Of a stretch of DNA of 23,411 nt, positions 3,622 through 17,779 are shown piece after piece. Both the position numbers and the translations under genes were made by a program. The stretch comes from a virus. The notes below the pieces were generated by a model. The model had not been told where the DNA came from. It made no database searches and worked only from the letters and a program-made list of their open reading frames with translations. The stretch is from the IMG/VR virus record IMGVR_UViG_3300005337_000048, positions 1-23,411 of that record. One strand, written 5' to 3'. Numbering within the stretch: the stretch's first letter is position 1; the number at the start of each line of letters is the position of its first letter.

Positions 3622-3644
3622 TAGGCCATAAAGCCTATATCGTA

Positions 3645-3720
3645 TGGCCAGCCACCAAGGATTCGAACCCTGATTCACGGATTTGGAGTCCGTTGTCCTG
3701 CCAGATTGGACGAGTGACTG
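3645..3720 (-). tRNA. tRNA-Trp (CCA anticodon)
   Basis: A 76-nt cloverleaf. The acceptor stem is CAGTCAC/GTGGCTG with discriminator G and an encoded CCA. The D arm is GTCC/GGAC, the anticodon arm is ACGGA-CTCCAAA-TCCGT giving anticodon CCA, the variable loop is GAAT, and the T arm is CAGGG-TTCGAAT-CCTTG. Every stem closes (G-U pairs included) and position 33 is T. The discriminator G agrees with bacterial tRNA-Trp. It decodes UGG and may supplement the host pool during late synthesis. It lies three bases downstream of the CCA end of the tRNA-like element. Confidence 0.93.
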
Positions 3721-3723
3721 ATT

Positions 3724-3822
3724 TGGATGGCATGGCCGGATGCGATCCCGGCACGGCGGAGTTGATAAGTCTTCCTACCGCAGGCTCTGGCGTCCTCGCG
3801 TATCGCCTACGCATTCATGCCA
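3724..3822 (-). ncRNA. tRNA-like element with CCA end, no canonical anticodon arm
   Basis: A 99-nt segment. It has a perfect 7-bp acceptor-type stem, TGGCATG (3822-3816) with CATGCCA (3734-3728), then T and an encoded CCA (3726-3724). It has a T-arm-like hairpin GCCGG/CCGGC with an 8-nt loop GATCGCAT, a D-arm-like hairpin GCGTA-GGCGA-TACGC and a GC-rich arm GCGG...CCGC. I tested the possible 7-nt loops with T33 and none is flanked by a pairing 5-bp stem, so no anticodon can be assigned. It sits three bases before tRNA-Trp in the same orientation. It could be a degenerate long-variable-arm tRNA, a tRNA mimic, or the 3' domain of a larger RNA including the upstream hairpin. Confidence 0.5.
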
Positions 3823-3910
3823 TTAGGGATTCGGCTGGGAGCAAGGCGCTACCCTTCAACTGATTATGCCGACCGAGCTTTGATCGGAAACCAACCGAAT
3901 CTCTAATAGC
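3819..3910 (-). ncRNA. Long imperfect hairpin in the tRNA-cluster leader
   Basis: Arms 3819-3838 and 3891-3910 are inverted copies of 20 nt differing at three positions. In the minus-strand RNA two of these become G-U pairs and one is an A-C mismatch. In the plus-strand RNA two are A-C mismatches. The pairing thus favours the strand that carries the tRNAs. The 52-nt loop contains a further CCGA/TCGG mini-hairpin. The element fills the stretch between the end of the 89-aa gene and the tRNA-like element, and no sizeable ORF runs through it. It overlaps the tRNA-like acceptor by four bases, so the two folds may compete. Function unknown. Confidence 0.5.
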
Positions 3911-3943
3911 CAGAACAATTTCATCTTACCACGTTAGCCGGGC

Positions 3944-4939: not shown

Positions 4940-5026
4940 TGGCGGAAGATGAAGGAGTCGAACCCTTTGCCGTGAGGCAACCCTGGTTTTCAAGACCAGT
5001 TACCAGCCAACCTAGTGGCATCTTCC
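4940..5026 (-). tRNA. tRNA-Ser (TGA anticodon)
   Basis: 87 nt with acceptor stem GGAAGAT/ATCTTCC, discriminator G and encoded CCA (4942-4940). The anticodon arm is CTGGT-CTTGAAA-ACCAG, giving anticodon TGA (decodes UCA). The long variable arm TTGCC-TCAC-GGCAA is as expected for class II tRNA-Ser, and the T loop is TTCGACT. One outer T-stem pair is A-C. It starts five bases downstream of the stop codon of the 65-aa gene, so it is probably cut out of the same transcript. Confidence 0.93.
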
Positions 5027-9524: not shown

Positions 9525-9534
9525 GGGTAAATCC

Positions 9535-9654
9535 CCTAAGCGGTTGACTGCTGTGGTAGCAGTCCCACAGGGGTAGGTCATTGCGACCGAGTTGGGTCAC
9601 AACAGCCAACCGCTTAGGAGACTTCTACCCCTGTTTTATTACCCGGCTGCTACC
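9535..9654 (-). promoter_or_regulatory. Structured leader with interlocked inverted repeats
   Basis: Three inverted-repeat pairs interlock: A 9535-9554 with 9599-9618 (20 nt), B 9567-9576 with 9625-9634 (ACAGGGGTAG, exact), and C 9555-9562 with 9647-9654 (GGTAGCAG, exact). A local hairpin GACTGCT/AGCAGTC lies at 9546-9564. The two A mismatches are G-U pairs in the minus-strand RNA but A-C in the plus-strand RNA, so the transcript towards the DUF1376 gene can form a 20-bp helix. Its 3' arm reaches the AGGGG ribosome binding site at 9533-9537. Pairings A, B and C cannot all form as nested hairpins, so this is a pseudoknot or a switch. A DNA-level origin is the alternative. Confidence 0.6.
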
Positions 9655-17442: not shown

Positions 17443-17499
17443 GTATCCGGATACCTAGGTAAAACACCGACCTAGCGGGACGCACCCCGCCAAGGCCGG
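17443..17499. other. Palindromes between convergent terminators
   Basis: In the gene-free stretch 17332-17530 this part holds a perfect 12-bp palindrome GTATCCGGATAC (17443-17454), an overlapping ACCTAGGT palindrome (17453-17460), and a longer hairpin at 17467-17499 (CCG/CGG, CCT/AGG and GCGGG/CCCGC with loop ACGCAC). Read on the minus strand, the last hairpin is followed by TGTTTT and could be a second leftward terminator. The small palindromes may bind a dimeric protein; no such protein can be named. Confidence 0.4.
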
Positions 17500-17506
17500 C
17501 AAAGAA

Positions 17507-17532
17507 AAAGGCTCCCAAGCACGGGAGCCTTT
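17507..17532 (-). terminator. Terminator of the lysis/late operon
   Basis: AAAGGCTCCC (17507-17516), loop AAGCAC, GGGAGCCTTT (17523-17532). On the minus strand it is followed by TTTTTCTTT-type residues, and it overlaps the Rz1-like stop codon. The plus strand also has TTTACTTTTT after it, so it can work in both directions. Confidence 0.88.
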
Positions 17533-17779
17533 ACTTTTTCTTGGGCTTCGTCCAGCAACCTTGAGCCACACCGTTAAGATTGTGGGCGAGTATTTCCTTG
17601 GCTGTTTGATCGGTCAACACGTCACCATTCCCTACAAGGATCATTGACCATCCCTTGCACGGATCGACCTTAACGGGACCAGTCGTCGTGCAGCTGACCA
17701 GCAGCGGTATGAGGGTCAGCAGTAGCCACAGCCTGCGTAGGCGCTTGCGGTAGGTTTTGAACCGTCGTGTCAACTTCAT
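17531..17779 (-). CDS. Rz1: Outer-membrane spanin (Rz1-like lipoprotein)
   Basis: 82 residues. A basic head (MKLTRRFKTYRKRLRR), a hydrophobic WLLLTLIPLLVSC segment ending in a lipobox (LLVSC, lipidated Cys about residue 30), then a short periplasmic part with two more Cys. It begins inside the i-spanin gene in another frame and extends past it, the classic Rz/Rz1 overlap (110 bases). The o-spanin joins the inner-membrane spanin across the periplasm and fuses the membranes in the last step of lysis of a Gram-negative host. It is more basic at the N-terminus and less Pro-rich than lambda Rz1. Confidence 0.85.
   Translation of the reverse strand: MKLTRRFKTYRKRLRRLWLLLTLIPLLVSCTTTGPVKVDPCKGWSMILVGNGDVLTDQTAKEILAHNLNGVAQGCWTKPKKK

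Follow-up and report, generated by a model that had tools for sequence, protein, structure and literature searches.

A predicted family of tRNA-shaped RNAs with paired loops and exchanged inserts, widespread and uncatalogued in phages

The bacterial Y RNA YrlA is a tRNA mimic bound by Ro60 and is reported from bacteria and phages. The purine riboswitch consists of one closing stem and two hairpins joined by loop-loop pairing, whilst the stable RNAs C and D of phage T4 lie in a tRNA cluster, are not tRNAs and have no known function. Here we describe an element that shares the closing stem and two loop-paired hairpins of the purine riboswitch, but whose hairpins are parted by a long variable insert; the element has no Rfam match and no tie to metabolic genes. 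By description it resembles RNAs C and D, as a putative stable non-tRNA RNA encoded beside phage tRNAs. Among prophage sRNAs, STnc100 (RF02076) is expressed, STnc100_4 having been verified by Northern blot in EHEC (PMC5331693), and PasD is linked to STnc100 (PMC13192938). A literature search, thin on subscription papers, returned no tRNA-shaped kissing-loop fold described for STnc100 or for the present family.

The element came to light in a 23,411-base virus record from IMG/VR, the whole of which is called the window. By direct reading, the minus strand from 3822 to 3724 is TGGCATG-AAT-GCGTA/GGCGA/TACGC-(45 nt)-GCCGG/GATCGCAT/CCGGC-CATGCCA-T-CCA, and the features of the locus are as follows.

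3728..3822 (-): tRNA-shaped RNA element, P1 to P1′; R1 covariance model 83.8 bits, E 1.1e-17, the window itself being in the training set; 32 further members
3816..3822 (-): P1 5′ arm, TGGCATG; P1 covariation across the family
3813-3815 (-): conserved AAT linker, 5′ of the D-like hairpin
3798..3812 (-): D-like hairpin GCGTA-GGCGA-TACGC, 5 bp; near-constant in the metagenomic branch, elsewhere altered with pairing retained
3803..3807 (-): D-like loop GGCGA, whose GCGA is predicted to pair with TCGC in the T-like loop; loop-loop covariation
3753..3797 (-): hypervariable central insert, 45 nt; insert swapping among phages and length range
3735..3752 (-): T-like hairpin GCCGG-GATCGCAT-CCGGC, 5 bp with an 8-nt loop, abutting P1′
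3740..3747 (-): T-like loop GATCGCAT, predicted kissing partner of the D-like loop; loop-loop covariation
3728..3734 (-): P1 3′ arm, CATGCCA; P1 covariation across the family
3724..3726 (-): CCA 3′ of P1; not a family feature
3645..3720 (-): tRNA-Trp(CCA), 3 nt downstream of the window CCA, probably co-transcribed; ARAGORN, Rfam 52.4 bits
3819..3910 (-): upstream hairpin P0, arms 3910-3891 and 3838-3819, with a 4-nt overlap with P1; score 39, a value that 0.2% of background stretches attain

The preliminary description of this DNA had claimed a perfect 7-bp acceptor-type stem, D-like and T-like hairpins and a CCA directly upstream of tRNA-Trp, and direct reading bears out all of these: P1 is a perfect 7 bp, or 8 bp if A3823:T3727 is counted, and the CCA ends 3 nt before the tRNA gene (3645-3720). 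The folding energy is unremarkable, with z of -1.2 for the tRNA-like fold and -2.6 for the upstream hairpin. A descriptor of a 7-bp stem, an abutting 5-bp arm and NCCA gave one match when run on 12 Mb of Markov sequence. Run on real phage DNA, 1.24 Mb of it, the descriptor matched only 3 tRNA genes, the window site and 2 others. It is the homologues that are decisive for the reality of the predicted fold. No promoter-like site was found just upstream of the window copy, and no terminator-like site was listed at it.

Three other structures were observed in the window. A second tRNA gene, tRNA-Ser(TGA), lies at 4940-5026 in the same orientation, ~1.2 kb upstream of the element; in Rfam it scores best, though under the threshold, with tRNA-Sec. 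A 27-nt inverted repeat (9529-9555 and 9598-9624), 85% complementary with 42 nt between its arms and overlapped by a weak NiCo riboswitch match, lies where a primosomal-protein-like gene starts. Lastly, a GC-rich hairpin at 17499-17540, with T/A runs on both sides and a sub-threshold ctRNA_p42d match on both strands, is probably a bidirectional terminator.

Homologues were sought by several routes. A two-part pattern made from the D-like and T-like arms and run against IMG/VR returned two loci, L133 and L134, whose arms are as in the window and whose closing stems are different yet perfectly or nearly perfectly paired; L133 sits 5′ of tRNA-Pro and tRNA-Gln. BLAST with a consensus and with L134 as queries found copies in Pseudomonas phage KLEP17-4, Leptolyngbya phage Lbo-JY16 (preceding tRNA-Ile/Thr/Gly and terminase), Klebsiella phage RCIP0055 and the tRNA array of a Pseudomonas plasmid, and a T-arm pattern search returned additional viral contigs. 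With a Klebsiella member as query, BLAST matched 176 of 5426 E. coli genomes as well as 89 phage records; in many of these the similarity was confined to short pieces. Thirteen more members were taken from annotated records, and coliphage mEp460 has a copy. The 33 members collected, window included, come from metagenomic phages, Pseudomonas and cyanobacterial phages, many Klebsiella and other enterobacterial phages, E. coli prophages and one Pseudomonas plasmid. All are laid out alike: a P1 of 7-10 bp comes first, as a rule followed by AAT, and then come a D-like hairpin, the hypervariable insert and a T-like hairpin of 5 bp that abuts P1′. Moreover, a covariance model built from 13 members, none of them from an enterobacterial phage, recovered 16 enterobacterial loci with E values from 2.8e-9 to 1.1e-4; this supports one predicted family independently. 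Among the members examined, the element itself drew no score over threshold from any Rfam 15 family, a tRNA inside the insert of L142 apart. A search of 369 bacterial genomes from the class of Gallionellaceae genome G016 gave no match and, there being no positive control among them, shows little. The matches listed for a loose stem pattern, GGCATG..CATGCCNTCCA, were mostly chance, and a tRNA-Trp pattern search gave no match.

Two carriers hold more than one such structure. In Klebsiella phage P01 a second related fold (L230:312-457) has the canonical 7-nt T-loop TTCGATT; a standard member lies ~400 nt beyond it, followed by STnc100 and a tRNA region. The 909-kb plasmid of Pseudomonas sp. FeN3W (L211) has at 749500-759500 a dense tRNA array with two copies of the element, one of them around a tRNA-scoring insert.

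The surroundings of the element vary. A strict tRNA was found near 5 of the first 21 loci (the window, L200, L202, L211 and L212), and a tRNA is also near the element in Hafnia phage Meifeng and Klebsiella phage GP-1. CCA follows P1 in a minority of members only. Judged by these sequences, neither the CCA nor the tRNA neighbour is a feature of the family, and the earlier suggestions of a CCA-ended RNA and of a tRNA-processing leader are not supported. A search for relatives through the neighbouring proteins gave one close relative of the window, L003 (92.7% nucleotide identity over TerL), from which the stretch 3641..3943 (-) is missing. Between the same genes L003 has other sequence, including small ORFs, and neither a tRNA nor an R1 match was found in L003. 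Because the stretch is missing from this close relative, the RNA and tRNA-Trp form an exchangeable cassette, and close relatives are unusable for covariation.

Covariation among homologous phage regions was one of the checks proposed in the preliminary description. P1 covaries strongly against permutation and slid controls, and the loops covary against permutation. P1 is paired in 136/140 cells in 20 members (permutation mean 99, maximum 117; 10,000 permutations) and in 227/231 cells in all 33 (permutation maximum 198; 5000 permutations); the permutations are uncorrected for relatedness, and the P1 arms vary freely among unrelated phages, with 14 distinct pairs. By pair counting P1 is 97% paired and 5 of its 7 pairs show two-sided changes. 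The covariation score of the whole structure is 0.293 versus 0.095 when shuffled (0/500), and in the slid control 34-44% is paired. Conservation of the T-stem, for which the search pattern itself partly selects, was excluded from the evidence. Moreover, between 3 and 6 bases of the D-like loop have Watson-Crick complements in the T-like loop, and the two loops change together, as GCGAT/ATCGC, ATGCGA/TCGCAT, TGTGAT/ATCACA, AGCCAA/TTGGCT, GTCGA/TCGAC and GCTGA/TCAGC. The longest loop complements sum to 168, whereas permutation gave 130 on average and 147 at most (0/2000), and this covariation spans nine T-loop classes. In the longer complements the outermost base belongs to the D-stem; of the GCGAT/ATCGC of the window, GCGA/TCGC falls inside the loops. 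Taken together, these data indicate that the window element is a conserved structured RNA on the minus strand, in which P1 encloses two loop-paired hairpins with a hypervariable insert between them. The covarying stems and loop-loop contact of the homologues support the earlier proposal of a new structured RNA in preference to a decayed tRNA.

The insert, measured after the first 22 nt, is 28-154 nt long in the family. In four Klebsiella phages, two of them recorded as Jedunavirus, the core and the downstream sequence are common (down50 0.90-0.98) but the inserts are unrelated (0.20-0.46). Conversely, L220 has an insert with 97-100% identity to the inserts of L224 (Shigella phage DS8) and L225 (Klebsiella prophage), whereas the flanks of L220 are unrelated to those of either. 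Such comparisons show exchange of the insert between phages as a cassette. An annotated HNH endonuclease gene (L221:259-840) lies beside one element, and an ORF resembling a GIY-YIG endonuclease lies 553 to 266 nt upstream of another (L205); these genes are possible vehicles for cassette exchange.

The reading that we prefer, with about even confidence, is that the family is a trans-acting phage RNA with a constant scaffold and a variable payload. The constant part would be a compact, nuclease-resistant, tRNA-shaped scaffold presenting the insert, and the insert would be the working part, acting in trans: its targets would be RNAs of the host or of rivals, or else it would serve as a decoy that draws off RNA-targeting factors of the host, defence nucleases for instance. 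An insert acting in this way would explain why whole inserts are exchanged between phages. In tRNA-linked phages the RNA would be released from longer transcripts; the window copy would probably be cut from one shared with tRNA-Trp, the processing sites being the P0/P1 junction and the tRNA-Trp 5′ end, and the E. coli prophage copies seem to be free-standing small RNA genes with their own promoter. One of these, in the E. coli O103 member (L233), has a promoter-like TTGACA-18-TACATT that ends 10 nt before P1. We count for this reading the covariation of P1 and the loops, the result of the 13-member model, the swapping of inserts, the L233 promoter-like site and the position of the element, which is intergenic in most annotated records; by analogy, the expression of STnc100, a layout-related sRNA, also argues for it. 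Counting against it, strict terminators lie 3′ of only 3/33 members. Some metagenomic inserts contain pieces of tRNA (that at 1432-1503 of L142 reaches the Rfam tRNA threshold, with 30.2 bits), which could reflect recombination in tRNA arrays, and the variation of the inserts could stem from a lack of constraint and not from diversifying selection; both points also count against this reading.

The family might have branched off from the prophage sRNA lineage of STnc100 and PasD, diverged, and act as a base-pairing sRNA, a reading we regard as possible, though we lean against it. STnc100 is the nearest catalogued RNA. The family is related to it in layout; it was not placed within STnc100 because neither covariance model finds the other's core members. 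Two STnc100 loci over the gathering score, L236 and L237, lie in carrier phages and have the layout of the family: TTGGTG or TTGTGGTG-AAT, followed further on by a 5-bp hairpin, GGGAGGCACCC, abutting CACCA. The closing stem (TTGTGGTG/CACCACAA) is nearly the same, both kinds are located in phages, and direct reading found the STnc100-type arrangement of P1, AAT and a 3′ hairpin abutting P1′. A downstream hairpin, GGTACCAG..CTGGTACC, is common to the STnc100 of E. coli phage 720R4 and the O103 element, and ACATAACAG is found 5′ of P0 in both L231 and L237. The lineage itself finds support in the link between PasD and STnc100 (PMC13192938). However, the window has no RF02076 match at E<=10, the other members score below cut-off (23.8 bits for the element of Cronobacter phage ES2 versus a cut-off of 47) and the two STnc100 copies were missed by R1. 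Moreover, STnc100 has a T-like loop of AGGCA and not the 8-10 nt loops of the family, no kissing complement was found in it by eye, and we know of no hypervariable insert described in it. Two other sets of candidate relatives were weighed: of the Pas sRNAs only PasD is linked, via STnc100 (PMC13192938), and for the svsR sRNA (PMC12803456) kinship to the family was not established.

Less probable in our judgement is a role in cis, comparable to that of the put sites of phage HK022: the element would be a leader or an antitermination element in late or regulatory phage transcripts, P0 would compete with P1, and the fold would control transcription or processing of downstream tRNA, lysis or packaging genes. 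The upstream hairpin is as first described, with imperfect 20-nt arms and mismatches better tolerated in the minus RNA (17 Watson-Crick pairs, 2 GU and 1 mismatch) than in the plus RNA (17, 1 and 2), and the four bases common to both folds (3819-3822) belong to P1. The view of it as part of the object finds partial support: a hairpin abutting P1, strong as in the window, recurs throughout ten copies from enterobacteria and also in L161, L159 and L163, but it is weak or absent in other members, including many metagenomic ones that lack it. Enterobacterial P0 (GGTAAGAGCATTG/CAGTGCTCTTACC and variants) is paired in 116/130 cells in ten copies (permutation maximum 115; 0/5000 as high). In some members, P0 either overlaps P1 or lies directly against it, and in several phages the element is flanked by Q or nin genes on one side and by holin, lysis or terminase genes on the other. 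The window copy could also be a cis-acting part of a longer transcript, since no promoter-like site lies just upstream. The supposed competition of the two folds, which may occur, finds no general support across the family: sequestration by upstream sequence is significant for the junction 15-mer in 11/33 members, but for P1 alone in only 3/33, about chance. Furthermore, in Klebsiella phages and others the element lies in antisense or convergent orientation relative to structural genes, and a cis-acting element that binds polymerase would not be expected to hold hypervariable inserts, here 28-154 nt long.

Other observations concern the upstream sequence. In L161 (G013), a 23-nt segment upstream of 6310 is nearly perfectly complementary to a stretch holding the entire P1 5′ arm, so that its two folds would be mutually exclusive. 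P0 was also considered as a mobile inverted-repeat element and rejected. There is no second copy among the listed window repeats; the two-arm pattern gave three viral matches. Sub-threshold tmRNA_permuted/tmRNA matches of up to 32.3 bits (L232:514-669, L224:382-539 and L234:521-637) fall in a long noncoding stretch, up to ~600 nt, upstream of the element. This stretch is 75-89% identical between phages with different surrounding genes and may be part of a larger RNA.

That the family is the bacterial Y RNA YrlA is very improbable; it too has a tRNA-like module with D-like and T-like arms that serves outside translation, but the RF02553 model matched nothing in the window and scored nowhere above its cut-off in the carriers, and a TROVE/Ro60 gene was found in 0/20 carrier genomes or records. 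With tRNA (RF00005) the family shares the plan of a 7-bp end-closing stem, a D-like arm and a T-like arm, and tRNA is a frequent neighbour. In contrast, the T-like loop of the family is 8-10 nt long and 3-6 Watson-Crick pairs connect the loops; an anticodon arm and a conserved CCA are lacking, and the length is about 82-213 nt. The predicted kissing contact differs from the tRNA elbow contact, replacing it by Watson-Crick pairs, and the earlier term tRNA mimic holds for overall shape only. ARAGORN at default and a lax Rfam search called no tRNA at the window element. Consistent with the first account, in which no anticodon arm pairs, permissive ARAGORN alone (70% thresholds) draws a tRNA, poorly: a 99-nt pseudo-cloverleaf with an 8-nt loop, CAGAGCCT, an A.G stem mismatch, a 4-nt 'anticodon' gagc and no anticodon arm of the tRNA kind, with U33 and a purine at 37. 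The mismatch and an A at position 33 led to rejection of a frameshift-suppressor tRNA with a 4-nt anticodon, and for tmRNA there were nothing but absurd low-threshold ARAGORN matches. A decayed class II tRNA or tRNA pseudogene, which the site 3 nt before tRNA-Trp, the encoded CCA, the acceptor-like, D-like and T-like arms and the permissive ARAGORN drawing might suggest, is scarcely credible given that even lax searches score no tRNA, that homologues in unrelated phages have common non-tRNA loops and covarying pairs that contradict it, and that the CCA, though encoded 3′ of the window P1, is not conserved.

In summary, a predicted family of tRNA-shaped RNAs is widespread and uncatalogued. Well-defined structured RNA families are few in phage genomes, and this one is common and almost always unannotated. 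We tentatively suggest, while thinking it doubtful in full, that it represents a large unrecognised class of trans-acting phage RNAs, from cyanobacterial to enterobacterial phages and prophages, in which a tRNA-shaped kissing-loop scaffold would carry swappable payloads for phage-host conflict, for example decoys for RNA-cutting defence, and of which STnc100 would be a distant unrecognised branch. The family supplies a structural hypothesis for the prophage sRNA STnc100, and the copy in coliphage mEp460 makes it testable in laboratory coliphages. A fixed scaffold with an exchanged insert is the pattern expected of a specificity element.
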